Source: a virus
Length of the DNA stretch: 64,000 bases
Virus record (IMG/VR): IMGVR_UViG_3300043399_000446
Location: 1 to 64,000 of that record
Strand: one strand, 5' to 3'
Positions 6,719-50,618 of this stretch are shown in pieces. Numbering within the stretch: the first letter of the stretch is position 1; every line of letters begins with the position of its first letter. The notes under the pieces were generated by a model. It worked only from the letters and a program-made list of their open reading frames with translations, was not told the DNA's origin and searched no databases. Made by a program: the position numbers and the translations under genes.

Positions 6719-9421
6719 TTATCCAATACTAAACAAGTCATCAAATGTACTTTTAGTATCTGTATTGCTGCGTATGTCCCATTCTAAGATACCCAATAAG
6801 TTGTCGATTTTTTCATCTACTAGAGTACGCTCCATTTCAGAATCGTCAAATGGCAATTGAACAAACCAATCAGGCAATCTTAGTTCATCTGTGGGATAAG
6901 CAACGCTTGTAAAATTCAATGGATTAGATTTGAGTTTACAAACTACAATCTTCATGCCATCAACAATCTTCATGCTATAGTTATCACTATTGACTCTACG
7001 TAAGTAGTTCCAATTCAATGCTGCGCGAACGTGACCAGGCATGTTTGCTTTACCAGTTTTGCTTTTCTTTTCTAAATCACTATAGTAAGTCAGCTTGTTT
7101 ACAGATTTAGGGCTGCCTTTAGTCCAACTTTCTTTGTTAGATAGTTCTACCTTGAAGTTTTTGATTGTTTCGATTACATCGTCACGACCTTTACCTGCAA
7201 GAACCATTTCTAAGACACCCATCAAGAAATCTTGAACATATTTAGGAGTATCTGCACGTTTTAGGTCAAGACCCATAGCTTTGATTTTACCAATCTTGCC
7301 ATTTACGTCTAAACGCTTGCCTTCTTTGTCGAAGATATTAAGAGCATAGCGTTTCTTAGTAATGAATAAGCCACGATCAGCAATCAATTCTCTACCTGCT
7401 TTGATAATCATGCCATTTTTTCTTGGTGTATGAAAGGCGCGCTCCATGAACGCCGCAAAGCTATCATTGACTTGATCTGCGATTGTATCATAAAGCTTGA
7501 TTACTGTGTCTTTGCTCCATTCTACGCCATCAGCCTCTATTACAGGCTTTAGTGATACTGCACTAAAATAACAGCTATCAGTATCGCCATAAACAATAGC
7601 ATCGCCTTCGTGCGTATACTTTCCAGTAACGATTTCGTTAGTCTGACTCATCATATGCTTGACGATTTGACGACCTGACAATGTTACACTTTGACCAATA
7701 CGCTTGTCATAGAATCTGCAATGTTCATTTAACAGAGCACCATATGCTGAGTTAAGCAGAAACTTACGTACTAACTGACGCTTGTCCCAATATTCTTGGT
7801 CCTCTTTAGTAGTAGATTCTTTTAGCTTTTTCTGCATTTCTTTACGTTCACTATACCATTCACTTAGTAGAGCAGGAATCACGCCCTCTTTCTCATACGT
7901 GAAGATCGTGCCATTTGCAGACAACATCCAAGGCCTGTTACTGTCAAATACTAGCTTCCATATTTCAGCAGCAGACATTTCTTCACTGCGACCATCTTCA
8001 TAGTCTAATGTAAGAATAGTGCCACGCTCCTGATTCATGATAGAAAGATATTCTAAGCTACCAAACAGATTCTCCCATAGAATAGAACCAGTTACATCAT
8101 CATCACCCTCTTTGTATCGGGCTTTCTGACTTGCTAGTTTTCTTCCTTTGTCAGCCATGTATCGTTGCGTGAGAGTTTGTCTGACTTGTGCAACGATTGT
8201 TTCTGGAGCCATGTTGAGGGCTCTAATAACCGAGGGATAGAGCGAGTTGATGTCGATACCACCGATCCATTCGCTAAGTCCTTTCTTGGGCGTAGCAACA
8301 TAGGCACCTGCCGCAGCTTGTTCATCCGATTCTTTCTCCTGTTTGTCGGGTACTACTAAGCCCATTTTGTGAGCTTTATTGATGACTGCCATTTCAATCT
8401 GAGCAACTGAGCCCATTACAGTAGGCAGCAAAACTGTATTCTGATGCGCGATACTATTTGCAAGATCCAAAAATTTTAGTTTATTGTGGATCTTTACAAG
8501 TAGCATCGTATCTTGACGGTTATACTCAATAAACTTCTTGAAGTCCTTGTTGTATAGTTGATCTAGTGTACCTTCATATTGTGTTTTGTTTTCGCCAACT
8601 TCCATTTCACCAATGAAGTCAAGCTTATAACTATGACGGCTCTCATAGTTATACTTTTTGTATAATTGTAGATAGTCCATATGAATACGACCAACTAAGT
8701 CATATGTCATTTCTACTTTACCAAAACGTTCATACTCGCGAGGTTTAGGCAGTTGATCCATCAAACAAAACTTACGTGTATCGTCTTTACTCATTACGCG
8801 AGTTACACGATTGACCATGTAAGGTATGTCATACCCTTCTGAGTTCCAACCTGTGATGATATCTGCATCGTCAATGAGTTGAAAGAATGTTTCAAACATT
8901 TCAACTTCGTTTGTGAACAGAATACAGTTTTCAAACTCATTTACAATCTGATTGGCAGTTTCTTTACTCATGTGCTTAGGGGCAATGACCAACGTTACAA
9001 GTTGGTCTAGCCAATCCAAATACATAGAAATTGCTGTTACAGGATTGAAGGGATCTGTTGTGGGGGAGAAGCCCTTTTCTGGATCAAAGTCAACCTCAAT
9101 GTCAAAGAATACTGTGTGAAGTTTAGGAGGATCCACATCCATATAGTTTTCACTCAGACACCTGAAAACTACGTTGATATCGCTTTCGTATAGTTTTTTA
9201 TTACCATGAATGCGTTTTTCTTTTTCAAATTCGCTGCGCTTGCGAGTAGAAAATCTACTCACAGCCTTACCATCTGTACCCCTATACTTACCCTTTAGAT
9301 CAGGATAATAGAAGGTGTATGAAGGTGAATATTCTTTATACTGTCTCTTTCCTTGAGGATCCCTTTCAACTACATAAATTCTATCTTTATCTCGGTCAAA
9401 CAACGCATCAATATATGACAT
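6719..9421 (-). CDS. gp43: B-family DNA polymerase gp43
   Basis: 900 residues (T4 gp43 has 898). The 3'-5' exonuclease motifs are present: Exo I FFDIEVDFD near 105-113, Exo II GWNSEGYDIPY, Exo III YNRQDT. Polymerase motif A is IDINSLYPS, motif B is KFLLNSAYG and motif C is VYGDTDS. The C-terminus ends FDDLFSIG, a clamp-binding peptide in the same position as in T4 and RB69. The gene is uninterrupted, with no split or intein. Its ATG overlaps the stop of the HNH endonuclease gene (TAATG), so the endonuclease sits immediately upstream. Confidence 0.97.
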   Translation of the reverse strand: MSYIDALFDRDKDRIYVVERDPQGKRQYKEYSPSYTFYYPDLKGKYRGTDGKAVSRFSTRKRSEFEKEKRIHGNKKLYESDINVVFRCLSENYMDVDPPKLHTVFFDIEVDFDPEKGFSPTTDPFNPVTAISMYLDWLDQLVTLVIAPKHMSKETANQIVNEFENCILFTNEVEMFETFFQLIDDADIITGWNSEGYDIPYMVNRVTRVMSKDDTRKFCLMDQLPKPREYERFGKVEMTYDLVGRIHMDYLQLYKKYNYESRHSYKLDFIGEMEVGENKTQYEGTLDQLYNKDFKKFIEYNRQDTMLLVKIHNKLKFLDLANSIAHQNTVLLPTVMGSVAQIEMAVINKAHKMGLVVPDKQEKESDEQAAAGAYVATPKKGLSEWIGGIDINSLYPSVIRALNMAPETIVAQVRQTLTQRYMADKGRKLASQKARYKEGDDDVTGSILWENLFGSLEYLSIMNQERGTILTLDYEDGRSEEMSAAEIWKLVFDSNRPWMLSANGTIFTYEKEGVIPALLSEWYSERKEMQKKLKESTTKEDQEYWDKRQLVRKFLLNSAYGALLNEHCRFYDKRIGQSVTLSGRQIVKHMMSQTNEIVTGKYTHEGDAIVYGDTDSCYFSAVSLKPVIEADGVEWSKDTVIKLYDTIADQVNDSFAAFMERAFHTPRKNGMIIKAGRELIADRGLFITKKRYALNIFDKEGKRLDVNGKIGKIKAMGLDLKRADTPKYVQDFLMGVLEMVLAGKGRDDVIETIKNFKVELSNKESWTKGSPKSVNKLTYYSDLEKKSKTGKANMPGHVRAALNWNYLRRVNSDNYSMKIVDGMKIVVCKLKSNPLNFTSVAYPTDELRLPDWFVQLPFDDSEMERTLVDEKIDNLLGILEWDIRSNTDTKSTFDDLFSIG

Positions 9422-9978
9422 TATACCTTTTTCCTACAGTTATCAAAATGCCATCTAAATCCATTAAATTGGTTTTTTCCTTCTAATCCACAATGTGGAC
9501 AAACCCATTTAACTTGTGTATTAGGTGAAACATTTTTATGGCCACACCACTGATGTGTTTTGTTTTTCACCCTCTCATTTTGAAATGACCTTTGAATTTC
9601 TCCACCTAACATATGATAGGTACCCTCCTCAACCAAACGCTTTACTCGGGCACTAACATCGCTGGCATGTTTTTTAGTCGTCCAATGATGCGATCCTTCT
9701 TTAACACGCTTTTGGGCTGCTAAACTGTTTAACTTAGAGATTTCTTCTGGTGGGAGTTTCATCCTTAAACCTATCATAACACAGGACTTCCAATCTTGTT
9801 TTTCAAAGTGTATATCATAATGTTCTTGAATGGGAATCGCTTTTAAATTAAGCGGGTCGTTATTAGTGTGGTCGCCATCTAGATGGTGAATATCATATAT
9901 TCTACCAAATTCATCTTTAGGTGGTTGTCCATAATGTTGGACATATACCTTTCGGTATGTTTGTGTTCGTTTTACCAT
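9421..9978 (-). CDS. HNH homing endonuclease with C-terminal zinc finger
   Basis: 185 residues from the ATG at 9978, which has CGGAG seven bases upstream; an in-frame GTG at 10077 lengthens the frame but has no ribosome site. The HNH core IHHLDGDHTNNDPLNL lies near residues 30-45. The C-terminus is a CPHCG...WHFDNCRKK zinc finger, almost the same as that of the GIY-YIG endonuclease at 49988-50554. It is a free-standing homing endonuclease inserted between the DsbA-like gene and gp43. A late-promoter octamer at 10053 and a 6-bp hairpin precede it. Confidence 0.88.
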   Translation of the reverse strand: MVKRTQTYRKVYVQHYGQPPKDEFGRIYDIHHLDGDHTNNDPLNLKAIPIQEHYDIHFEKQDWKSCVMIGLRMKLPPEEISKLNSLAAQKRVKEGSHHWTTKKHASDVSARVKRLVEEGTYHMLGGEIQRSFQNERVKNKTHQWCGHKNVSPNTQVKWVCPHCGLEGKNQFNGFRWHFDNCRKKV

Positions 9979-10006
9979 GATACTCCGATTAGTAGTAGAA
10001 GGGCTA

Positions 10007-10024
10007 TCTGTGAATCGGCACAGA
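10007..10024 (-). other. hairpin in the leader of the HNH endonuclease gene
   Basis: TCTGTG and CACAGA form a 6-bp stem with a 6-base loop, 29 bases upstream of the ATG and downstream of the late promoter. A comparable hairpin precedes the GIY-YIG gene. Confidence 0.4.
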
Positions 10025-10052
10025 AGGGTAGCTACTCCCGTTCGCCCTCTAT

Positions 10053-10060
10053 TATTTATC
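10053..10060 (-). promoter_or_regulatory. late promoter of the HNH endonuclease gene
   Basis: GATAAATA on the minus strand, one base from the T4 late consensus TATAAATA. It lies about 75 bases before the chosen start and just behind the end of the DsbA-like gene. Confidence 0.6.
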
Positions 10061-10073
10061 AGATATCCGTAGT

Positions 10074-10334
10074 TCACAGTGTTTTTCCTACAGTTTCCAA
10101 AATAGTATTAAGTTCTTCATGATCTTGATTGGTTTTGGTTAATGCTGCTTTGTGGGCCAAACGAATTGCTTTTTTGAGCACACTTGGCTTGATTTCCATT
10201 TCTTCTGCTACAGCTTTGACCAAATCAGATAAGCCTTCATTTAGGCTATCGATTTCGTGCATAGTTTGGCAGCCTTCGTTGATTACTTGTGTCAGGCGTG
10301 CTTTTTGTTCGTTTGAAAAAATTCGGCTAGGCAT
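10074..10334 (-). CDS. dsbA: DsbA-like late transcription / dsDNA-binding protein
   Basis: 86 residues (T4 DsbA has 89). The region from about residue 30 (LNEGLSDLVKAVAEEMEI...KKAIRLAHK) follows the T4 DsbA pattern of a NELIKDIR helix, a DELGV turn and an LLALYHK helix. T4 DsbA is a small double-stranded DNA-binding protein that supports late transcription. The start has AAGGAG, and a strong sigma70-like promoter lies at 10365-10393. The order DsbA-like, then HNH endonuclease, then gp43 suggests the endonuclease interrupted a two-gene unit. Confidence 0.7.
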   Translation of the reverse strand: MPSRIFSNEQKARLTQVINEGCQTMHEIDSLNEGLSDLVKAVAEEMEIKPSVLKKAIRLAHKAALTKTNQDHEELNTILETVGKTL

Positions 10335-10405: not shown

Positions 10406-10798
10406 CTATTTGCGTTTGTAACCTTTGAACGATTTTATTGGACTGGTTTTATTAGTATCACCTAATTCTTGACTTTCATTGTGTGGATTTGGTGACAATG
10501 CGTCTTGCCAATCCACATTAGCCATTCTATACGCATGTTTTAGCATTTCAGCTTCCAATTTGGTATAAGGATGTGCAGTATTGTTTCTGCCCGCCCAACT
10601 TTGTTGAGGAATAGGTGGAAAATTTACTCCATCTGCAACAGCTACAAATTGCATAACTCTGTTCAAATCATACAACCTATCAGCAGTGCCTGCAACTCTA
10701 TGCGTGCCTGGCAATGAGGCTTCGTGTTCTTTAGGTAACTTTAGACCATTTTTTACAATGTTTTTGACTGCTTCGTTTATGAACTCTTTGGCACGCAT
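10406..10798 (-). CDS. tagged phage protein of unknown function (MRAKEFINE N-terminus)
   Basis: 130 residues from ATG 10798; a frame to 10825 adds nine residues. I prefer the inner ATG because it gives the MRAKEFINE tag shared with other genes here, and because an AGTAAATA late-type octamer lies exactly five bases upstream. The tag matches the T4 capsid-targeting pattern, with the I-x-E site cut by the gp21 prohead protease. The body carries an SWAGRNNTAHPYTKLEAEMLKHAY segment, split as SWAGRN then AHPYTKLEAEMLKHAY, typical of a conserved phage family. No Shine-Dalgarno is present. Function unknown; packaging in the head is inference. Confidence 0.7.
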   Translation of the reverse strand: MRAKEFINEAVKNIVKNGLKLPKEHEASLPGTHRVAGTADRLYDLNRVMQFVAVADGVNFPPIPQQSWAGRNNTAHPYTKLEAEMLKHAYRMANVDWQDALSPNPHNESQELGDTNKTSPIKSFKGYKRK

Positions 10799-11466: not shown

Positions 11467-12036
11467 TTATTGAAAGATATTTGGGTGATTTTTACCATAA
11501 ATCTTGATAAGTTTGCCCGCAACCATATCAGCTAACAATTCAATTGGGCTACCTGGATAGCTATCATTTGGTTCAATCATGCCCAATTCATGTTGTTTTA
11601 CATGTGTCAACTCATGTGCAACTGTTCTAAGAATATCAACTAAATTACGATTTTTGGCATATACCCAAATACTTCCTGATCCTGGAGTATGTCCACCAGT
11701 ATGAGTGTTTTCCTGTGCTTCTTCGGTATCCATACTCAATTCTATTTTAGGTAATTTACCCAAATTTAGCTTTTTACCTACCCAATTAGCAAAATCTCTT
11801 ACTATTTCTTCATTCGTATTTGGATCTTCATCCAGCTTATTTTTTATCCAATCGTCCGGTGTTTTCTTATATTTCTTTACAAAGATATCATGCAATGCGT
11901 TAGCTGATATCTTATGCTTTTTAGATATATTACGCATTAACTTGTCTATGGTATCGTAGTCGTGTTTAGCCAATGAAGGTAGTTTGTCCTTCAATTCTGT
12001 TACTGCCGAATCTAATAGTAATTCATTATAGCGCAT
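11467..12036 (-). CDS. HExxH metallopeptidase-like protein
   Basis: 189 residues. The zinc site HELTH (about 141-145) sits in a VAHELTHVKQ helix, and a downstream ELLADMVAGK helix offers the third ligand Glu, as in gluzincin-type and SprT-like peptidases. The family is not one I can name. The N-terminus MRYNELLLD resembles the tag of neighbouring proteins (MRYNEITKE at 13636) but lacks the exact I/L-x-E site. It starts exactly five bases after a GATAAATA late octamer and has no Shine-Dalgarno. A virion-carried protease is possible. Confidence 0.75.
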   Translation of the reverse strand: MRYNELLLDSAVTELKDKLPSLAKHDYDTIDKLMRNISKKHKISANALHDIFVKKYKKTPDDWIKNKLDEDPNTNEEIVRDFANWVGKKLNLGKLPKIELSMDTEEAQENTHTGGHTPGSGSIWVYAKNRNLVDILRTVAHELTHVKQHELGMIEPNDSYPGSPIELLADMVAGKLIKIYGKNHPNIFQ

Positions 12037-12085: not shown

Positions 12086-12802
12086 ATGGGAATGAGGTTT
12101 TCTAGTGGAATGAGATTGATTGGTGGTATGCGGGCGTTGAGTTCAGGTGGAGGGGGTGGTGGTTCAGATCCTTATTTTGCTAATGTAGTGTTACTAGTGC
12201 ATGGTGATGGTGCCAATGGTGGTACTACTTTTATAGATAGTAGCTCTTATAATAGAACTCCTCAGTTCATTTCAGATGTAACTACAAGTAATGAGCAAAC
12301 TATTTTTGGTCAAAATACAATTAAAAGTGTTCAAGGAACTTTTGGTGGCAGCGTGTTACAATATGCATCTAGTACAGATTTTGCTGCTAATCAGCCATTC
12401 ACTCTAGAATTTCAAATATATATAACTTCTGCCCCATTTTTTCAACCTTTCTTTATGGGAAGGTCAGGAACAAGTTATACTATAATTAATGAAGAATCTA
12501 AGGCTATTCAATTTAGTAGCTATCCTGGTGACGGAGGGGGAAATTTAACAGTGAATTCTTGGAATTATGTAGCATATTCAGTTAATTCAACAGAAGTTAA
12601 TTTGTATATTAATGGGAATAAAATGACCGGGACTAGTGTAGGACTATCTGATCCTGCTACTCAGCCTTTTGGTTTAACAAATATACCCGATGGCATAAGG
12701 TCTTTGCAGGGATATTTAGCAGAGATTCGTTACACTAAAGGGGTAGCCCGATATTCAGGCGCAACTATACCTTTACAAACAGCGCCTTGGCCTAATAGTT
12801 GA
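12086..12802 (+). CDS. LamG / concanavalin-like adhesin, tail fibre type
   Basis: 238 residues, one of the few plus-strand genes. A short Gly/Ser-rich N-terminus (to about residue 26) is followed by a VLLVHGDGANGGTTFIDSS strand opening, the usual start of phage LamG-type jelly-roll domains. LEFQIYI, NSWNYVAYSV and LYINGNK strands and a closing AEIRYTKGVARY complete the domain. It probably binds carbohydrate on the host surface as a decoration or fibre-tip protein. AAGGA lies nine bases before the ATG. It is a single-gene unit between a divergent late promoter and a bidirectional terminator. Confidence 0.8.
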   Translation: MGMRFSSGMRLIGGMRALSSGGGGGGSDPYFANVVLLVHGDGANGGTTFIDSSSYNRTPQFISDVTTSNEQTIFGQNTIKSVQGTFGGSVLQYASSTDFAANQPFTLEFQIYITSAPFFQPFFMGRSGTSYTIINEESKAIQFSSYPGDGGGNLTVNSWNYVAYSVNSTEVNLYINGNKMTGTSVGLSDPATQPFGLTNIPDGIRSLQGYLAEIRYTKGVARYSGATIPLQTAPWPNS

Positions 12803-12949: not shown

Positions 12950-13636
12950 TTAGGTTCTTGATTCCATAATACTGAACCAAGGATCTATAATAACTAATGT
13001 GCCATCTTGGCGCTGCATAACATTTTGTGTATGTAAATCCCAACCAAATTTATTTATATTACCTGTATGATATAGTAGTTGCATCAATGAGAATAAAATT
13101 CCCCACTTTGCTATATCTGAGTTATCCCAAGATTGTATATCAGCTATTACTTGCTCTATTGTTGGGGGTTCTTTTAAAAATATCCAAGTATGAGGATCTA
13201 ATAATTGTTCGTAGACTTGATTCCATTTCATGTTTTTTGTAGCAAAATCACTAAGCATCCAAACAATAGCCTCTTCAACTGTTCCCTCTGTAATAGGATA
13301 TAGTTGCTCCATAGATATCTGAATATATTCTTTATCACCTAGCATGAATGTAGCGTGATGTTTGCCTTGAATTTCAATGAATCTAGGTAAATTTTCATAT
13401 TGTTGATGCTGCTGAACAAACTCATAAAACTTATAAAAGATGTTTGCTGAGTGTGTTCTATCTTCAAAGGTGTCTGGCATTATAATTTTAATTACTTTGC
13501 CTGTATCTTTTGCCCACACTGTTGCATCAGCACCCGACCCCAGCATCTTGTATCCAGCGTTCTGTAATGTTTTTGTTATTTGTTGAGCTTCAGGGGTACC
13601 CACTTCAGCTTCTTTAGTTATTTCATTGTATCTCAT
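12950..13636 (-). CDS. protein-kinase-fold protein with capsid-tag-like N-terminus
   Basis: 228 residues from the ATG at 13636, whose ATGA overlaps the nuclease stop. The tag MRYNEITKE carries an I-x-K-E rather than a canonical I-x-E site. The kinase-fold landmarks are: G-loop GSGADA (33-38), beta-3 lysine in VIKII (K50), catalytic-loop-like WDLHTQNVM (D200, N205) and a metal-binding IIDPW (D218) in place of DFG. This is the pattern of small-molecule and atypical protein kinases. The C-lobe is short. Substrate unknown. It is the last gene of the minus-strand cassette starting at 17199. Confidence 0.7.
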   Translation of the reverse strand: MRYNEITKEAEVGTPEAQQITKTLQNAGYKMLGSGADATVWAKDTGKVIKIIMPDTFEDRTHSANIFYKFYEFVQQHQQYENLPRFIEIQGKHHATFMLGDKEYIQISMEQLYPITEGTVEEAIVWMLSDFATKNMKWNQVYEQLLDPHTWIFLKEPPTIEQVIADIQSWDNSDIAKWGILFSLMQLLYHTGNINKFGWDLHTQNVMQRQDGTLVIIDPWFSIMESRT

Positions 13637-14073
13637 TTTATAGGGCACCAACTTTGTTTTGCTGTTCCGTAATATTCGCGTGCATAACCATTAGCTATCA
13701 GCAAATATCTCAATGATACACCATCAATAATTAAATCACCTAATACCCTACCGCCATATTTGTCCCAATTCATTAAGACGATTTCTATTTTTTGAGCATT
13801 TGCTACAATTGTCTGTGTGTAAGTAGTAGCTTCTCTGCCTCGCTTATCTTCTTGTGGGCATTGGGCTCTTGATCCCTTTTCAGGTGTATCTACTCCATAT
13901 ATTCTTAAACTTAATTCTGGTTTTAAAGGTTGGGGCAAGAATTTAGCTTCAAATTTTACAGTATCGCCATCAACTACTGAAATGATTCTATAATCATATT
14001 TATTAAACGCGGGTTTAGCAAAGCCTAATAAAGGCAATGTTGAAAGTAATATTGTTGCTATTATTGTTTTCAT
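13633..14073 (-). CDS. secreted thermonuclease (SNase-like)
   Basis: 146 residues with a signal peptide: MKTIIATILLSTLPLLGFAKP has a basic start, a hydrophobic core and an Ala-Lys boundary near residue 20. The staphylococcal nuclease core follows: VVDGDTV, RIYGVDTPEKG with the catalytic Arg, Asp and Glu, then KYGGRVLGDL with the second Arg, and LIANGYAREYY. Two cysteines (CPQ and WCPIK) could form a disulfide in the periplasm. It starts one base inside the end of the amidoligase-like gene (TAATG) and its stop overlaps the kinase-like gene. Periplasmic action, perhaps against competing DNA or for nucleotide scavenging, is inference. Confidence 0.88.
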   Translation of the reverse strand: MKTIIATILLSTLPLLGFAKPAFNKYDYRIISVVDGDTVKFEAKFLPQPLKPELSLRIYGVDTPEKGSRAQCPQEDKRGREATTYTQTIVANAQKIEIVLMNWDKYGGRVLGDLIIDGVSLRYLLIANGYAREYYGTAKQSWCPIK

Positions 14074-16070
14074 TAGTCTGCTCTAATTGTTATGTCTCGC
14101 ATAGATAGTGAACCAAATATATCAGGCCTATCTTGTTGCGCCTGTCTATAAGCATCTTCTTGTGATGATGCTCTAACCATTATTTCTGCTCCAGGTCTTG
14201 CTGTAGGACTTACTCTATATAACTTTTCTTCAGATTGTTCAAAGGGCCTAATTAGTTTTGCTGTAGCTTTACCTTGTGATATTAAAGTTTGACCTGCTTC
14301 TTGTGGCATACCATATTCACTAAAAGCTTTTGCAAACGCTTCTTCTTTAGAACTTGCTGCAACTTCAATACCGTAATTACCAAAATTAACTTGCCACCAA
14401 TATTTACCTGTGGGTTTATTAGCAGTTTGATCTTTTTGATACTGACGCTGTGTTTGTATATTTTTAATAAAACTCTTTAGTGCCGATTGTGGCAACATAC
14501 CAGCACTATATTGAGCAAAAATTGCTATTGGATCATCATTAGATTTAGGTTGTAATAATTGATATAGCTTTTTCAAATATTCTTTACGATATGCCTGCGT
14601 ATCCATAGAAGCATCCAATGCTACTACAAATCGTAATAGTGTATTTGTTAGTTTGTTTATATCTTCGTTTAACCAATCGCCACCAGGACTACGAAACTCA
14701 ACATATCCTTCTTTAGGATTAATACTGGTATATTTACCGAATCCATCGCTGCTTGCTATTGCTCTTGATGCTATGGCGCCTAATCCTTTACGCATTTCAT
14801 CCATCAACTTTTGAGCGGAGTCGGGATAGTACCTTACTTGATCTTTAATTTTATCTAATGCGCTTTTTGTATAAGTATTAGCTTCGCGACCAAATTGTTC
14901 TAAAACATAATTATCGCCAAGTAATAATGCTAACTTTACAAAATCCATAAAAGCAACATTTTTACCTGGTATACTAATATTCATGTGTAAACCAGTTGAT
15001 TGATTGGTATATGCGCCACGTTGTTTAGCCCATGCTATAGTTTTCTTCAAATCACTTATCATTTCATCAATGGGCATCGGTGGACTTACAAATTCTAATC
15101 CACTGTCGTTGGCATCGTCTCCATCTATACTGCTATCAGGCTCTAAAACATATTTGTTAGGATCGCGTTTTGCGCCATGATATCTACCACTGACATTTAT
15201 ACCTTTACCTATCATATTGCTAAAATCTTCACCTACATCTTCAACTGACATTCCTCCGCCACTTGTTTCTGTATAATAGGGCCAAGCTACATAATTAGAA
15301 TAAGTCTGATAAACATCACTCATCCAACGTAGACCTTCGTCTTCAAAGAAATCGCTTTGGTCTGGTAAGTCAGAACTATCCATCCATCTATCGTAAGCGT
15401 TTTGGTATAAATCTCCCTGCTCATCCCATTCATTATCAACAAACTCATCAAACATTTCTTTGACGCGCTGTTTGACTTCATCACTGTCGGGATCTAAACC
15501 TAATTCTTCTGCTGCACTTTCTTGAGCTTCAGCAAAATCAAATTCATCTCCCATTTCTTCACGAAAAAACTCATCTTTTTCATCTTGCCACAATTCGCTT
15601 TGTTTTTCACTGGCCCATTCGTAGTAAGCTTCTTGTATTTTTTCTATCAATCTATCAACATCTCTACGACTGTTCCAATCACCATCAGCAAAAAAATCTT
15701 GAATGCCCTCAAAACTGCTTACTCTATCGTCGCTGCTAAAGTCTTGTTCTAATTCAGGTTCTTCGTCACCTTGAGTGTTTGGTACAACCATTTCAAATTC
15801 CATACCGGCTACTGCACCTGTATCTGCTGCTAATTTACGCAGATTACTTGGGCTCATATCTATTTCGTATAATGCCTCTTCTTCTAGTGGATGTAGTTTG
15901 GCTCCTGTAACCTGCTGTAGTAAGTCCCATGCCGCTTTCTTATCAGTAGAAAGCAAAAATTTCATTCTAACTTTTTCTTCAGGTGTGGCTACTTTTTGAA
16001 ACTTTACAAGTTCCATCATGCCAATATTATCTGGATAGGATAGTTCTTTTATGAATTGATTTGCTCTCAT
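14073..16070 (-). CDS. amidoligase-like protein with capsid-tag N-terminus
   Basis: 665 residues. N-terminal tag MRANQFIKE (I-x-E site). From about residue 88 the protein shows amidoligase (GCS/COOH-NH2 ligase fold) signs: a GMEFEMVVP strand, an acidic insertion of about 170 residues, GLEFVSPPMPIDEM, a GAYTNQSTGLHMNIS segment, a helical FVKLALLLGDNYVLEQFGR part and YVEFRSPGGDWL. Members of this fold make amide bonds between carboxylates and amines, for example on peptides. The C-terminal 120 residues contain two short repeats (EEAFAKAFSEYG and EDAYRQAQQDRP), each before a strand. It is the largest gene of the tagged cassette. The family call is by motif only. Confidence 0.65.
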   Translation of the reverse strand: MRANQFIKELSYPDNIGMMELVKFQKVATPEEKVRMKFLLSTDKKAAWDLLQQVTGAKLHPLEEEALYEIDMSPSNLRKLAADTGAVAGMEFEMVVPNTQGDEEPELEQDFSSDDRVSSFEGIQDFFADGDWNSRRDVDRLIEKIQEAYYEWASEKQSELWQDEKDEFFREEMGDEFDFAEAQESAAEELGLDPDSDEVKQRVKEMFDEFVDNEWDEQGDLYQNAYDRWMDSSDLPDQSDFFEDEGLRWMSDVYQTYSNYVAWPYYTETSGGGMSVEDVGEDFSNMIGKGINVSGRYHGAKRDPNKYVLEPDSSIDGDDANDSGLEFVSPPMPIDEMISDLKKTIAWAKQRGAYTNQSTGLHMNISIPGKNVAFMDFVKLALLLGDNYVLEQFGREANTYTKSALDKIKDQVRYYPDSAQKLMDEMRKGLGAIASRAIASSDGFGKYTSINPKEGYVEFRSPGGDWLNEDINKLTNTLLRFVVALDASMDTQAYRKEYLKKLYQLLQPKSNDDPIAIFAQYSAGMLPQSALKSFIKNIQTQRQYQKDQTANKPTGKYWWQVNFGNYGIEVAASSKEEAFAKAFSEYGMPQEAGQTLISQGKATAKLIRPFEQSEEKLYRVSPTARPGAEIMVRASSQEDAYRQAQQDRPDIFGSLSMRDITIRAD

Positions 16071-16078
16071 TTTTTCAC

Positions 16079-16762
16079 TTATAACTTATAATATTGATTC
16101 ATCACGTTGCTATTGAAGCCAACATCAATGATAACTGGTTTTCCTTGATATATACCCCAATTAACGGCTCTTCTAAAGTCACCTAATTCAACGTCAAACG
16201 AATTATTTAAATCTGCTAATGTATTAGCATAATCTGTCATTGTATCTATTTGTTCTTCTGATACATTGCGCTGACGAAGGAATGAAACAAAACTTTCATA
16301 GTTACCTGTATAACTCTTTTTACCTGTGATAGCCCAAGCCATGTTTACTAACTGCGACAAGTTATCACAGCCCATAATCTGGCACAATTGCTTCTCAGTT
16401 GCTTTTGTGGCCATTTCAGTATGAACCCAAGTAGGTTCACGATTCTGTTCGTCATAATCAATAATAGGTATCAATATACCTAGCTGACTTGCGTAACCAT
16501 CACTTAATATGTCTGCTTCTACACTATTCTGTGCTAGACCTTTTTGATTCTTAGCAATCTTTAGTACAGTAGGACGACCTTGATATTCAATGACTGTGGC
16601 AACACGGCTAGAACCAGCGCCTAATTTCTTGGCTCTTTCTAATGCATAAGCAAGTCTTGACTTGAATGTAGTTCCTTGTTGACGCATTTGAACAGGGTCC
16701 CAATCCGCAGGAAGAGGAGCTTCGTCAACAATAGCTTCTTTTAAAAATTCGTGGGCTCTCAT
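16079..16762 (-). CDS. kinase-fold protein with capsid-tag N-terminus
   Basis: 227 residues. The tag MRAHEFLKE has the L-x-E site. Kinase-fold landmarks: G-loop-like GAGSSR (48-53), VLKIA with K68, a helix glutamate E82, then VELGDFRRAVNWG (D195, N201) as catalytic loop and IIDVGF (D213) as the DFG counterpart. All key residues for ATP and metal are present, so it may be active. Its ATG overlaps the Dps-like stop (ATGA), so it is coupled to it. It shares the fold, but little sequence, with the protein at 12950-13636. Delivery into the host with the DNA is inference from the tag. Confidence 0.7.
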   Translation of the reverse strand: MRAHEFLKEAIVDEAPLPADWDPVQMRQQGTTFKSRLAYALERAKKLGAGSSRVATVIEYQGRPTVLKIAKNQKGLAQNSVEADILSDGYASQLGILIPIIDYDEQNREPTWVHTEMATKATEKQLCQIMGCDNLSQLVNMAWAITGKKSYTGNYESFVSFLRQRNVSEEQIDTMTDYANTLADLNNSFDVELGDFRRAVNWGIYQGKPVIIDVGFNSNVMNQYYKL

Positions 16763-17199
16763 GCTCTTTGTTTTTTAAGTAATGATTTTAATTGCCACTG
16801 CCATTTAGCATGTGCGTCAATTCTGCCAGCTATGTAATCAGCTATACCTTGCTCATCTGCTTCTTCAGCCAAATGAAAAGTTTGACGTAATAGTTCTATT
16901 AGTTTTTGATTATCTTCTGTTAACTCAGCTATCATTAACTCAGCGCGGGGAATTTTTACTTGATCTTGTATAATAGATAACTCGCCAAATCTAGTTAAAC
17001 TTCCTGGAGTATAACTATCTAATGTGCGAATTTTTTCTGCTGTTTCATCAATTGATTCAAAAACTTCTGTGTATATATCACCAAAGAATTCATGTAATTG
17101 TACAAAGTCTGGACCCTCGACGTTCCAGTGAAATGAATGTGTTTTAAGATAAAAGCAAAAACTGCTTGCTAAGTAAACTTTTAAACTATCAGATAGCAT
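16759..17199 (-). CDS. dps: Dps-like ferritin-fold protein
   Basis: 146 residues, the usual Dps size. The signature H24-WNVEGPDFVQL-H36-E followed by D51-ETAE55-KIR matches the Dps inter-subunit ferroxidase site with correct spacing. The acidic ligand expected four residues after the second His is Gly40, with Asp41 next to it, so iron oxidation may be altered. There is no basic N-terminal tail for DNA binding. Dps stores iron and protects DNA from peroxide. It is first in a unit with the two kinase-fold genes, the amidoligase-like gene and the nuclease. A GATAAATA octamer at 17223 and a weak GGGAT ribosome site precede it. Confidence 0.88.
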   Translation of the reverse strand: MLSDSLKVYLASSFCFYLKTHSFHWNVEGPDFVQLHEFFGDIYTEVFESIDETAEKIRTLDSYTPGSLTRFGELSIIQDQVKIPRAELMIAELTEDNQKLIELLRQTFHLAEEADEQGIADYIAGRIDAHAKWQWQLKSLLKKQRA

Positions 17200-17222
17200 A
17201 ATAAAAATCCCAAGTATTATAT

Positions 17223-17230
17223 TATTTATC
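17223..17230 (-). promoter_or_regulatory. late promoter of the Dps-led cassette
   Basis: GATAAATA on the minus strand, 23 bases before the Dps ATG. A TATAAT-like string follows at once, but no -35 box is visible. Confidence 0.6.
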
Positions 17231-17298
17231 TTAAAACAGAATACTTGATGCTTATCTGTAACCTTTAAAATTTACGTAAAAATCTATTACACTATCAG

Positions 17299-17523
17299 TC
17301 ATTTCTTTCTCCCTTGACAATGTGCGCGCTGTGAAAACCCTTTAGGATTTTTGCAGTTAATAGAGCGTTTATACTTAGCACTCCATTTCTCATCTAATAC
17401 ATCTTCTTCAGTCAAATCGCCTGTTCTGCGCTGACCTTTTTTGATGAATGGTTGATTTTCCTGCTCCCAAGTTTCAGGATAATTCATACCTAAACTTTCT
17501 TTGATAAATTCTTTGGCTCTCAT
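17299..17523 (-). CDS. small tagged protein with conserved basic C-terminus
   Basis: 74 residues. The tag MRAKEFIKE carries an I-x-E site. The C-terminal part, WSAKYKRSINCKNPKGFSQ then RAHCQGRKK, is a basic module with two cysteines that I recognise from many T4-like environmental phages, usually at the end of tagged proteins. It overlaps the stop of the upstream gene (ATGA at 17520-17523). Function unknown. Confidence 0.75.
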   Translation of the reverse strand: MRAKEFIKESLGMNYPETWEQENQPFIKKGQRRTGDLTEEDVLDEKWSAKYKRSINCKNPKGFSQRAHCQGRKK

Positions 17524-18509
17524 TTTACACTTGTTAAACTTATTCTGTATTGTTTACCGTGACTATCTTTTACGATGAGGCCTCCATTTTCAATCTTAAC
17601 AACAGTAACCGTACCTAACAGTCCATGTGTTACTTGTTTACCTGGAACAAGATTGCTGACATCAATATTCTTAGAACTCATACTTTCTTCAACATCTTGT
17701 TCATTTTGAATGCCACGCATGATTGCACTTTCGCTTTTTGTGCCCCAGTTCTTAGCACCTTTCTTGCGACATTTTACTAATGCACCTGAAGCATATGCTG
17801 ATGGCCAAACTTTGTATCTGCTCTTTACTTTATAATAGCAGGCGTCTTTTTTCTCCATCATTAATGCTTCGCTAAACATTGGACCTGCACAATGTGGGCA
17901 TTTTTCTTCTTTTATATCTTGCTCATCTAAAACATCACGGTAAAGTTCTAACCTACGCTTTTCAGTATCCAATCTTCTTTGTATATCTTCACGATCAATA
18001 TAAGGGTTAGGATCTTTTAGTTCAGATTCTAGACGTTTAATTACAGCTATTATTGCTTCAGCTTCTTTTTTTGCTCTTGCTTGTTTAGTTAATCCTTCCT
18101 CTACAGTTTCATCAGTTTTCTTTTTACAACTACCTGGCGCACCTGCTGGCACACCTTGAACTCTTGTATAGCCAGACCAACATTTTAGTTCGTCAAGTTG
18201 TTCTTCCGATATACCTTCGTTTGATTTCTTTTTAGTAGCGACATTGATCGCTTTGCCACTACGCTCTGGATTAGGATCTTCTCTGCGCTTGCGGGCTGCT
18301 GCACTAGCACGACCTTTCTTACCTAAAGAGTGTGCTTTACTCTGTGGCAAACATTTTGGTTTACCTTCACTATCATCTCCTCTAGCACAATCTCCTCGGA
18401 TCTTTCCATCAGGACCAAATCTTACCCATTTTTCTTTAAACCATTTACGTAAATCTTCGTTGATAGAATTTTCGGTACTTTTGACTAGGCCTTCAAATAT
18501 CTTACTCAT
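17520..18509 (-). CDS. modular basic phage protein (DUF6321-like module)
   Basis: 329 residues from the ATG at 18509, which has AAGGA nine bases upstream and begins five bases after the previous stop. Modules: residues 20-90 hold the LRKWFKEKWVRFGPDGKIRG and CLPQSKAHSLGKKGRASAAA blocks of a small conserved phage domain. A linker with a CWSGYTRV block follows. A helical charged part leads to CPHCAGPMFSE, and then a MEKKDACYYKVKSRYKVWP block ends with GALVKCRKKGAKNWG. The last 50 residues look like a small beta domain (LVPGKQVTHGLLGTVTVVKI). Several L-x-E and I-x-E sites lie in the linkers. Function unknown. Confidence 0.75.
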   Translation of the reverse strand: MSKIFEGLVKSTENSINEDLRKWFKEKWVRFGPDGKIRGDCARGDDSEGKPKCLPQSKAHSLGKKGRASAAARKRREDPNPERSGKAINVATKKKSNEGISEEQLDELKCWSGYTRVQGVPAGAPGSCKKKTDETVEEGLTKQARAKKEAEAIIAVIKRLESELKDPNPYIDREDIQRRLDTEKRRLELYRDVLDEQDIKEEKCPHCAGPMFSEALMMEKKDACYYKVKSRYKVWPSAYASGALVKCRKKGAKNWGTKSESAIMRGIQNEQDVEESMSSKNIDVSNLVPGKQVTHGLLGTVTVVKIENGGLIVKDSHGKQYRISLTSVK

Positions 18510-18513
18510 TGTA

Positions 18514-19692
18514 TTAATCCTTTTTCTTTTCGGGAAGACCTTTATGTTTTGTAGCAGCATATTCGTGACCTGCTTTTTTGCTCATACCTTTAGCCACTTT
18601 AGCTACCTCCTTGCTTGCTGGCTTCTCACCTTTTTGTGCAGCATGGACCATTCCCATAAATCTTTGTTGTGCTTTACTTACTGCTTTTTCTGCCACAATA
18701 TCAATCTTGGGTTTAATTTGATTTGATGTAGTTTCTTTATCAATAGTGCTATAAATTTTTGCTACACGTTCACCTTTAAAATCTATAGGTGTTTGTTGTT
18801 CTTTGGCTTTGTGGGCAGCAACCATTTTTTTAAACTGAGTATTTTTTAACATTTTTACAAATTTTCGGGGATCCATCAAAATCTGTAAAAAATCATCTTT
18901 TCTATCAGTTGACCTATATAGTTCCTGTATTGCCTTTGCTGCTGCGGACGTTACCGGTCCAGCCACACCACCTATATTAATTTCAATTGATTTATTAGAT
19001 TTTGCAGCGTTAAATATTTTATCTAAAATTTCATTAGCTTTTATGGAGGGACCTGGTTCTACTGTATGTGCTTCATATTGAGGTCCACCTGCAATAACTC
19101 CTGCACCTGTAACAGCCTCTCTGGCCATAGTTTTATGCTCAAGATATTCGCGAATAGTGTTTAGATAATCGTTTGCTTTTATAATCTTTTCTTGTACCCA
19201 GCCTTCTAAACCTTCTTCTTCGCTGATTTCAGAAATCAATTCATAAACTTTTTTAGCATTCTTTGCTGCTTGAAATAGATCACTACGCGCCATTTCTACT
19301 TCGTGGTCAGTGCGATCTTTGTCATGTGGTATAAATCCTGATTTTAATTTGCGACCTATTCCTGGCACTAAAATCAAATCATCTTCTTCTAACTTAGCTT
19401 CATCTACTTTTGTAGTATCCTGTTGAGGTTTACTTTTCATTAAAGCACGCATTTCTTGTTTAGTTTTGCCATATTTCTTTTTGAATTCTTCATCAGACAT
19501 TCCATCTTTGCCTGAACTAAGATCCATTTGTAATTCCTTGACTCTACCTTCAGAGATGCTATTAGCGTATTTTTTATTTGTTTTTTTACCGGTAAGTAGA
19601 TTACCGCCTTTACGACTTTGTTTGAATAAGGGAGTGGCTACTGTAGCAACGCTACCTGATGTCGTAGTTTCTACAATTTGAGTGATTTTCAT
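18514..19692 (-). CDS. modular phage protein with DUF3008-like C-terminus
   Basis: 392 residues. The N-terminus MKITQIVE resembles a short tag with an I-x-E-like site (I-V-E). Residues about 120-190 contain the HDKDRTDHEVEMARSDLFQA helix-rich domain conserved in T4-like marine phages. The last 55 residues (SKAQQRFMGMVHAAQKGE, then KGMSKKAGHEYAATKHKGLP) match the small DUF3008 family, which normally stands alone. The centre is low-complexity and rich in Lys and Glu. A GATAAATA octamer at 19721 precedes it. It leads the cassette that runs down to 17299. Confidence 0.75.
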   Translation of the reverse strand: MKITQIVETTTSGSVATVATPLFKQSRKGGNLLTGKKTNKKYANSISEGRVKELQMDLSSGKDGMSDEEFKKKYGKTKQEMRALMKSKPQQDTTKVDEAKLEEDDLILVPGIGRKLKSGFIPHDKDRTDHEVEMARSDLFQAAKNAKKVYELISEISEEEGLEGWVQEKIIKANDYLNTIREYLEHKTMAREAVTGAGVIAGGPQYEAHTVEPGPSIKANEILDKIFNAAKSNKSIEINIGGVAGPVTSAAAKAIQELYRSTDRKDDFLQILMDPRKFVKMLKNTQFKKMVAAHKAKEQQTPIDFKGERVAKIYSTIDKETTSNQIKPKIDIVAEKAVSKAQQRFMGMVHAAQKGEKPASKEVAKVAKGMSKKAGHEYAATKHKGLPEKKKD

Positions 19693-19720: not shown

Positions 19721-19728
19721 TATTTATC
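19721..19728 (-). promoter_or_regulatory. late promoter
   Basis: GATAAATA on the minus strand, 28 bases before the ATG at 19692. Confidence 0.55.
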
Positions 19729-47210: not shown

Positions 47211-49322
47211 TTACTTTAATCCTGCTAGCTTTTTCCAGTCAGTTAAAGAATCACCTTCTGTTACTTTAACTGATGTGTGGGGTAGCGTTGTTTGATCACG
47301 CTTTTGTTTATTCAACCCACCTGATATTACCTTAGTCATAAAATCCATATCCGCTTCAAATGTATCATCAGCACTGTTTGCAAATGATTCTTCTAATCCA
47401 TCATCCTGTTCTTCATCTGATTCTTCTTCAAGTTTAGAATCATCTGCACCTGCTGAATTTGCTAATCCTATGTTATCAGCAGCGATTTCTTTATCTTCTG
47501 CGTCGACTTCTTCTGCACCTGAATCGGGAGGATTATCTTCAGAAACTTCAAATTCCATCTGATCCTCTGTTTCGACTTCATCAACCATTTCTTTATCGCC
47601 GCAAGAATGTCCTGCTTCCAGCATGCCACCGCATTCTTGGCATGTTTCTTTATGACCGTCACATTGGCAATCTTGCATACCGCAATCAGGGCATACTTCA
47701 CCGTGTTCGTGATCGTGACTACCCATCTCATCAGCATAATCGTGAGAATCATCATGTGAGCCACCTGGCATACCTGTTCCAGCTACTTTCTTAATTAGTG
47801 CCATCATACCATCATGATCGTCAACTACTGTAAGATCGCCATGTTGTTTAACCGTATCTTGGTCAGCATGTGAAACTCCATAGTCGCTAGGTTGTTCTTC
47901 ACCGCCTAGAATTCCCATTTGCTTTACTAAAGCCATAAGCTTGTCTGCATCACTATCGCTAGCAGTTACACTTACTGAATCAGGAGCACCCATTTGACCT
48001 TTTGATACAGAAATGCTCATCCCTTCTTCGATGGCTTCACCTTCAGTTAGAAGTTCATTTAGTTGGTTGTCCCAACCTTCAAATGCCATCATCATTTCAT
48101 CAACTTTAGCATCATAATCTGATGTATCTTTGAAAGTTTTGCCACCAACACTAAACTTTTCACCTTTTTCTGCTTTTGCTAATGCTGCTGTGAAAGCATT
48201 TCCTTCTTCCATTTCATCTTCCATTGCTGGCATAGCTTGACTTGCCATTCCAGAAACTGTTGCTGCGGGCATTTCTTCACCAACTACTACACCACGCATT
48301 GGCATGATACCATAGCATTCGTCAAGACCCATTTTGTATCCTTCGTGATACATACGAGCTTCTTCGCTGCCTTCATCATAACGGCAGTGATAACTTTCTT
48401 TAGCAAGAGCGTGTGATTTGCCTCTGTGGTGTGCTGCTTTTAGGCGTTGATCCATGCCTTCTTCTACTTTCTTTTTCTTTTTATCACCAGCAGCCTTCTT
48501 CATGGTTTCTTTCTTGTTTCCATCTTTATCTAAGTCTAGAAAATCTGGTTTTGATCCTTTTGCTTCTAATGTTAAAGGAGATGCTAATGCGTCATTTGGT
48601 GGCATATCAGCTTCATTAGTTTTAGCACGTAGTTTAGCTAATACTGCACCTGCTACTTTTTCACCACGCTCTTTTGAACCATAATGCTCGCCCGCACTCT
48701 TAGCAATCTTAGCAAACTGCTTACCAGGCTTACCAATGTCTTTACCTGCACGGGCTGCCTTAGCTGAGTAATCGGCTTCACCTAGCTCGCTACCTGCCAA
48801 ACTCATTTCACCCTTGCCAATAGCTTGTTTGATTGTGTTAGCTAGTTGTGGATTAGCAACTTGTCCTAATACTTTAGTACCTTGTTTGATTACTTGTGTA
48901 GATGCTTTAGCTGGTTCTATAGTTAATTGTTCTGCTTCGGCTAGCATATCCAACTCAGCAATCCAATCTTTTAGGCTTTCTTTGACTTTCTTTTTCTCTG
49001 ATGGCTCCTTGTCAGATAGCTTGTGCTTTGTTTTTCCTAGCTTTTCTAGTTCTTTGCTTTTCTTAGGAACGCTACCTACAATATAACGCTGTAACTCTGA
49101 TGCTCCACCATAACGCTTTGATGTATCAGCTTCACCACCTGCTTTACGAGGACGGCCGCGGCCACGCTTTTCAGCAGGAGCCGCAGTTTTTTTCTCACCA
49201 TCTTCGTCATCTTCGTCATCATGTTGTGCGGCGCCACCATAAGCTTTACCTGCGACTTTTCTTGATGTCATTTCAGCTTCGTTAAGCTGGTCTAGTTTTC
49301 CTAAAAGACTTTTGAAATCCAT
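47211..49322 (-). CDS. large modular internal/core-like protein with many prohead-protease-type sites
   Basis: 703 residues, very charged. The N-terminus MDFKSLLGKLDQLNE carries an L-x-E site, and further L/I-x-E sites recur (LAE, LGE, LTE, IEE). Modules in order: an AT-hook RGRGRPRK near 55, helical LRAKTNEADMPPNDA and FLDLDKDGNKK segments, a SYHCRYDEGSEEARMYHEGY block, and a His/Asp/Cys-rich zinc part (CPDCGMQDCQCDGHKE, CQECGG). The tail is acidic and ends LTDWKKLAGLK. It resembles proteins located with head genes of T4-like cyanophages. A scaffold or internal-protein precursor cut into peptides is possible. Function unproven. Confidence 0.7.
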   Translation of the reverse strand: MDFKSLLGKLDQLNEAEMTSRKVAGKAYGGAAQHDDEDDEDGEKKTAAPAEKRGRGRPRKAGGEADTSKRYGGASELQRYIVGSVPKKSKELEKLGKTKHKLSDKEPSEKKKVKESLKDWIAELDMLAEAEQLTIEPAKASTQVIKQGTKVLGQVANPQLANTIKQAIGKGEMSLAGSELGEADYSAKAARAGKDIGKPGKQFAKIAKSAGEHYGSKERGEKVAGAVLAKLRAKTNEADMPPNDALASPLTLEAKGSKPDFLDLDKDGNKKETMKKAAGDKKKKKVEEGMDQRLKAAHHRGKSHALAKESYHCRYDEGSEEARMYHEGYKMGLDECYGIMPMRGVVVGEEMPAATVSGMASQAMPAMEDEMEEGNAFTAALAKAEKGEKFSVGGKTFKDTSDYDAKVDEMMMAFEGWDNQLNELLTEGEAIEEGMSISVSKGQMGAPDSVSVTASDSDADKLMALVKQMGILGGEEQPSDYGVSHADQDTVKQHGDLTVVDDHDGMMALIKKVAGTGMPGGSHDDSHDYADEMGSHDHEHGEVCPDCGMQDCQCDGHKETCQECGGMLEAGHSCGDKEMVDEVETEDQMEFEVSEDNPPDSGAEEVDAEDKEIAADNIGLANSAGADDSKLEEESDEEQDDGLEESFANSADDTFEADMDFMTKVISGGLNKQKRDQTTLPHTSVKVTEGDSLTDWKKLAGLK

Positions 49323-49976: not shown

Positions 49977-49992
49977 TATTTATCTATTTATA
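49977..49992 (-). promoter_or_regulatory. tandem late promoters
   Basis: TATAAATA and GATAAATA lie directly side by side on the minus strand, 18 bases before the ATG at 49958. The first covers the end of the GIY-YIG gene. Confidence 0.65.
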
Positions 49993-50554
49993 TTTTTTTT
50001 CTACAGTTATCAAAATGCCATCTTGACATAGCAGGGTGCTGCCCCATTTTTCCACATTTAGGGCAAGTGGAAATAGGCTTAGGTCCTTTATTTTTACCCA
50101 ATAATGCTTTACTTATATTAGGCCTTTTTCTACCCTTAAGTGCTTTACTAACATGTGGTAGAGGCTTACCTAATTTACTAATACTTATAGATTTGCAATG
50201 TTGTTCAGACTTTTTCTTGCCCTCATGAGATTTACTCATTTTATTGCGTTGAGTTTTTGAGAATTTGAACCCCTCTATACCTTCACCCCCATCTGTAAGA
50301 TTTCTTAGAATTCCTGTTCCTAAATCCTTTCTACCATACCACTTAATCATTCTTCTTTCTATAGCAAGGGCACCCAATTCAGTTAAATTATGCTCTAATA
50401 TTATTATTTGAGAAAAATCTTTTGGTATATTTATAGTATGTTTTTCAATGGCTCTGGTGTTCTTTCCTTTACCAATATAATAAGGTGTCCCATCTTTTCT
50501 AAGGTAAGCGTAAACGTAAAAACCAACAGGAATAATTTTTTTGCTAAATACCAT
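49988..50554 (-). CDS. GIY-YIG homing endonuclease
   Basis: 188 residues from the ATG at 50554, with AAGGAG nine bases upstream; a longer frame to 50614 lacks a ribosome site. GIY-YIG core: [20 protein letters not shown] (residues about 11-30) with the catalytic Arg further on in [19 protein letters not shown]3-like repeats ([32 protein letters not shown]) bind DNA. The C-terminal CPKCGKMGQ...[11 protein letters not shown] finger is shared with the HNH enzyme at 9421. It lies between gp16 and the tagged gene at 49335, with its own late promoter and hairpin. Confidence 0.9.
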
Positions 50555-50581
50555 GGCTGACTGCTCCTTACAAGCGTTAGA

Positions 50582-50612
50582 GAGGATGGGTATTTCCAGT
50601 ACCGCGATCCTC
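50582..50612 (-). other. leader hairpin of the GIY-YIG gene
   Basis: Stem GAGGAT and ATCCTC with an inner GGTA and TACC pair, between the late promoter at 50619 and the AAGGAG before the ATG. Confidence 0.5.
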
Positions 50613-50618
50613 AATATC

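Follow-up and report, generated by a model that had tools for sequence, protein, structure and literature searches.

The internal proteins of T-even phages are diverse, and their targeting sequence alone is conserved (PMC3012670). In T4, experiments have defined a capsid targeting sequence (CTS) in the ten N-terminal residues of IPIII, which suffice for targeting and are identical to the IPII propeptide; processing is set by residues 8 and 10, and the sequence may be a general means of protein loading (PMC9026906). Phage proteins delivered with the DNA are known for very few phages. The stretch analyzed here, designated the window, comprises positions 1 to 64,000 of the 86,132-bp IMG/VR virus record IMGVR_UViG_3300043399_000446, whose DNA polymerase is closest to those of Phosso, Atu_ph07, and Rak2-like jumbo phages of the T4 superfamily. 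It contains a block of eight consecutive minus-strand genes, at 12950-19692, several of which begin with a common short peptide, or tag. We consider it probable, at roughly 80%, that this block serves a T4-superfamily phage as an internal-protein locus, its tagged proteins being packaged, cut, and delivered to the next host. Packaging, cleavage, injection, and targets are all inferred.

The full tag is nine residues long, M-[RK]-x-x-[EDQ]-[FIL]-[ILT]-x-E (MRAxEF[IL]KE type), and opens four genes of the block, all on the minus strand: kinase B (12950..13636, MRYNEITKE/AEVG, the slash marking the end of the tag), an Amidoligase_2 protein (14073..16070, MRANQFIKE/LSYP), kinase A (16079..16762, MRAHEFLKE followed by the APLPADWD kinase domain), and a small basic protein with a Cys-containing C-terminal module (17299..17523, MRAKEFIKE/SLG). 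A fifth full tag opens a small basic protein beyond the block (10406..10798, minus strand, MRAKEFINE/AVK); it and 17299 were identified as open reading frames (ORFs) with the tag pattern. The basic 392-aa protein of 18514..19692, the frame gene heading the block, has a tag one residue shorter (MKITQIVE/TTTSGS), which is full length in homologues (MKINQIISE/TTT; those in L013, L041, L073, and L082 start in the manner of MKINQIISE or MKITQIISE). A metallopeptidase-like frame gene (11467..12036, minus strand) has a degenerate form ending in Asp, MRYNELLLD/SAV, where homologues show MRFSDILTE/SAA. The Dps-like protein, the staphylococcal-nuclease-fold protein (SNase), and 17520 have no tag, and the predicted cargo therefore makes up no more than a part of the block. 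The first-pass annotation had put forward a candidate injected-effector cassette at 12950-19692 that combines tag-bearing enzymes with a Dps-like protein. The tag does behave as a capsid targeting sequence, but Dps, the secreted nuclease, and 17520 are not supported as cargo, and the tagged set extends past those bounds to 10406 and the degenerate 11467.

Across 40 stretches (the window, the remainder of its record, and 37 related loci), the tag pattern stands at 75 of 952 ORF starts and at 6 of 4001 internal Met residues (odds ratio 57, Fisher p 2e-47). Full-pattern tags open five of the 111 ORFs in the 86-kb record, and all five lie within 7 kb. A scan of IMG/VR with back-translated MRAxEFITE returned at least 120 stretches, and a permuted peptide returned four. 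Every one of the 132 MRAxEFITE matches in the examined loci opens a frame of at least 60 aa or runs off the end; for 111 of them an in-frame stop lies no more than 20 codons upstream, and the proteins behind the matches fall into 14 sequence clusters. Tagged genes lie next to each other in 37 pairs, compared with 15 in shuffles (shuffle maximum 25). Behind the common tag the mature parts are unrelated and the locus is variable, as for T4-type CTS internal proteins. The idea that the tag is strictly phage-specific proved true in part only: Alishewanella phage Slicko01 uses the form MKIxxLYxxLLE, yet MRA.EF and MKI.EI forms occur on one contig.

A tag profile was built from 109 tags, T4 excluded, and run on 249 T4 ORFs covering 150 of 169 kb. 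IPIII ranked first and IPII second (Mann-Whitney p 2e-6 for the test), and the top 13 included the prohead proteins gp24 (6), gp22 (7), IPI (8), gp68 (9), and gp21 (13). The T4 processing residues 8 and 10 correspond to tag columns 7 and 9. Like the T4 signal, the tag is a short N-terminal peptide ending in [IL]xE, and the likely maturation sites of the major capsid protein (MCP) in relatives, [LI]xE/[STA], are of the same type as the tag end (compare FLTE/A in T4 gp23). Directly behind IPIII and IPII, third of 249, ranks T4 gene 61.1 (L126:18966-19130; MKTFKEFIKEDMVAG...), of which we know no report as an internal protein, no search for one having been made.

In the mechanism we propose, the peptide, more narrowly M-[RK]-A/I-x-E-[FIL]-[IL]-x-E, would be captured by the prohead core, and a gp21-type prohead protease would cut after its final Glu. 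The trimmed cargo would remain beside the DNA inside the head and then enter the next host, where its enzymes (two kinases, an amidoligase, and a metallopeptidase here; GNATs and murein hydrolases in relatives) would act before phage gene expression. Around them a frame of 18514/17520, Dps, SNase, metallopeptidase, and DNA polymerase is stable, and the slot after Dps swaps cargo. Host takeover is a plausible purpose; by analogy with T4 Ip1-3 (PMC12373910), anti-defence is as likely. The murein hydrolases of relatives hint that some cargo takes part in entry.

The relatives, taken from IMG/VR, comprise 37 loci with kinase A and 78 with Dps. About 30 contigs, some of them near-duplicates, have in common, whole or within the part covered, the frame p25398-p23158-18514-17520-(17299)-Dps-[slot]-SNase-metallopeptidase-(tilS-like)-p10074-DNA polymerase. 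Nothing or next to nothing occupies the slot in L073, L074, and L079-L081; in the other contigs it contains one to five genes, most of which are tagged: kinases A and B, the amidoligase, GNATs, cell-wall hydrolases (GH19, Hydrolase_2, SLT, LysM), and unknowns. One contig, L082, keeps the gene order of the window without kinase A. Slicko01 has eight consecutive tagged genes, the last of them kinase A. In a 315-kb relative (G005) kinase A directly follows the MCP gene, and in two others (G001 and G010) the neighbours of the MCP gene include tagged genes, one kinase-B-like and one GNAT-like. Tagged paralogues of Slicko01 (L005:9933-15603) that start ...SPIVFHST or SPVLFHAT resemble ADP-ribosyltransferases (ARTs), and two that were tested had no Pfam match. 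ART identity was set aside for the YHATxx proteins of Slicko01, L022, and L075, which have no Pfam match above the cut-off and show a resemblance only; the best ART match, to ART-PolyVal, had an E-value of 0.017, for L016.

Three further proteins (L017:10660-11304, L019:3540-4217, and L022:7956-8630) have a capsid-type tag and, directly after it, a twin-arginine-like signal; the first contains a GH19 chitinase/endolysin domain by Pfam, the second is similar by eye, and the third has another domain. Tag and twin-arginine-like signal together could form a two-step delivery signal. Only tentatively, and with somewhat less than even confidence, we suggest that environmental T4-superfamily phages carry a widespread, exchangeable effector cartridge in which one capsid-tag code loads arbitrary enzymes, some cargo (L017:10660, L019:3540) having the twin-arginine signal behind its tag to route a delivered murein hydrolase from the cytoplasm to the periplasm of the new host.

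The catalogue of domains in the first-pass annotation (two kinase folds, an amidoligase-like protein, a nuclease, Dps, and basic proteins) was borne out by profiles, folds, residues, and pI. Kinase A belongs to phrog_4301. Pfam did not detect its fold, which is supported by AlphaFold and Foldseek together with conserved kinase residues: GxGxxR, K68, E82, N201, and D213xG are invariant in 28 sequences, and the listed PDB matches are kinase-like, albeit weak (E about 1e-3, TM about 0.35). Kinase B starts at the ATG at 13636, not the TTG at 13651, and matches phrog_15752, the T7 0.7-type protein kinase, with E 4e-10; GxG, K50, DLHxxN, and DP are conserved, and kinase-like folds prevail among its listed Foldseek matches. 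Conservation of the P-loop, the Lys, and the catalytic Asn/Asp residues speaks for kinase activity in both. Where tag and kinase A are fused directly, the junction is clean (xE/APLPxDWD); some relatives have a GNAT-like or other domain inserted ahead of the kinase, and there the tag stays at the N-terminal end. AlphaFold models residues 1-13 of kinase A and 1-10 of kinase B as disordered and is otherwise confident, the tag thus being separable from the folded domain, as in T4-type CTS internal proteins.

A DNA or RNA element, such as a recombination or translation signal, is a very improbable explanation of the shared start. Four of the five window tags do begin with ATGAGA, but over the 109 tags third codon positions vary (1.6-1.8 bits in several columns) while second positions of columns 5, 6, 7, and 9 are invariant or nearly so. 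Selection on the tag therefore acts at the peptide level, and the tag is conserved as protein, not as DNA. Such a peptide might instead dock or localize proteins to another partner (a phage compartment, a chaperone, a membrane, or the tail or baseplate), the proteins acting in the producing cell; the tagged murein hydrolases of several relatives could serve lysis or tail entry. We regard this as quite unlikely, given that in T4, a genome kept out of its training, the profile matches IPII, IPIII, and prohead-core proteins, that the end of the tag matches both a gp21-type site and the likely MCP sites of relatives, and that tagged genes adjoin the MCP gene. Because of the enrichment at ORF starts, the protein-level conservation, the clustering, and the top ranks of IPIII and IPII, the tag is most likely a T4-type CTS.

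Packaged proteins might also serve head morphogenesis or DNA packing, their enzyme folds being inactive relics. The basic tagged proteins 18514 and 17299 suit DNA packing, and IPIII influences T4 head assembly (PMC9026906). This reading we hold to be unlikely: kinase residues are conserved in both kinase families, and cargo varies among related phages in a slot that can be empty and is therefore not needed for assembly. Several points weigh against an internal-protein locus with delivered cargo. T4 Alt ranks only 22 of 249, and gp23, whose cleavage site is internal, ranks 78. Neither a prohead protease nor an MCP was identified in the 86-kb record, in a search that was not exhaustive. The tag pattern was composed after tags had been seen, and the independent checks are the T4, permuted-peptide, and internal-Met tests. 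A chitinase of phage XacN1 is found in virions without the tag (PMC5852040); virion enzymes therefore use other routes too, and this protein was set aside as proof of tag-based packaging.

The block genes run, 5' to 3', 18514, 17520, 17299, Dps, kinase A, amidoligase, SNase, and kinase B, followed downstream by the metallopeptidase-like 11467 and then 10406. Their coupling, reported from the first, could be located at ATGA overlaps 17523/17520, 16762/16759, and 13636/13633 and at TAATG at 14073. Dps (16759..17199, minus strand) forms the left border of the slot and belongs to the ferritin/Dps family by sequence (PF00210, E 2e-20, with Dps chains among PDB matches). In many contigs it adjoins tagged kinase or amidoligase genes, the synteny that had been anticipated. 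It is itself tagged in none of 56 relatives, and the SNase is untagged, which speaks against the earlier view of both as injected cargo; Dps is more aptly seen as a stable gene beside the cargo slot. Synthesis in the infected cell is likelier for Dps and SNase than packaging by the tag route. The SNase gene (13633..14073, minus strand, PF00565), the right-border frame gene, encodes a hydrophobic signal-like N terminus.

The amidoligase scores 37 bits against a cut-off of 22 for Amidoligase_2 (PF12224, 3.8e-9). A pattern search of IMG/VR for it found nothing; a 62%-identical tagged homologue was met in a Dps locus, and the tagged homologue of L082 (MRAQELLSE/LSYP) adjoins Dps. Its relative in Atu_ph07, AUZ94978, lies two genes away from the portal gene, in a phage with 131 virion proteins (PMC6102473). 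The proteins 17299, 17520, and 18514 are basic, with pI 9.3-9.6. Frame gene 17520..18509 (minus strand) encodes a 329-aa DUF5872-like protein of phrog_727, and 18514 ends in a DUF3008-like module.

Two minus-strand boxes that resemble late promoters lie upstream of Dps (17223..17230) and of 18514 (19721..19728). The late octamers noted earlier are thus present as late-type boxes, but read in the coding direction, 17230-17223 and 19728-19721, their sequence is GATAAATA, not TATAAATA. On the coding strand GATAAATA was found 14 times against about 4 expected, 11 of these copies falling in the 100 nt ahead of a gene start (p 8e-9), and it also precedes the tail-tube gene (53798), a large tail-region gene (47152), and other virion-region genes. 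As a motif match, the boxes fit late expression of the block.

Several neighbouring features were also observed. A lone plus-strand gene at 12086-12802, LamG-like by eye, lies between kinase B and the metallopeptidase inside the minus-strand block. Two homing-endonuclease-like ORFs, 9421-10077 and 49988-50614, have a common C-terminal CPxCG...WHFDNCRKK module. A large, charged, repeat-rich protein at 47211-49322 starts MDFKSLLGKLDQLNEAEM; it may be a further head-internal protein that has a prohead-type site.

If the tag is a CTS, sequence can reveal which proteins many uncultured T4-superfamily phages inject, and anti-defence and host-modifying enzymes could be sought in the slot after Dps. 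The locus suggests packaged kinases and amidoligases besides the known packaged ADP-ribosyltransferase, Alt. We found no paper on this cassette, or on the targeting-sequence idea for enzyme cassettes in uncultured T4-superfamily phages. Since reviews cover the targeting sequence, the block is best viewed as a T-even-type locus with new cargo: such loci are known, and enzymes as cargo would be the new element.

The closest likeness is to IPI, IPII, and IPIII of T-even phages, which have a short N-terminal M-K/R..EF[IL]xE/A signal, unrelated mature parts, and a variable locus (PMC3012670, PMC9026906, PMC12373910). Those T4 internal proteins whose function is known are small and inhibit Type IV restriction enzymes, whereas the predicted cargo here is mostly enzymes, in a slot within a conserved frame to which Dps, SNase, and DNA polymerase belong. 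An injected enzyme carried in the head is also known in T4 Alt, but it is an ADP-ribosyltransferase with another N terminus, MELITELFDE, in place of the kinases, amidoligase, and GNAT seen here. To our knowledge, the ejection proteins of SPN3US share no short uniform tag. Their N-terminal propeptides are likewise removed by a prohead protease, but the cleavage motif is AXE (PMC10052503). Polyvalent proteins of phages and conjugative elements (PMC5512222) are also predicted to be injected and have kinase, ART, GNAT, peptidoglycan, and peptidase domains; these are large multidomain polypeptides, whereas the domains here mostly occupy separate genes, each with its own short tag of cleavable type.
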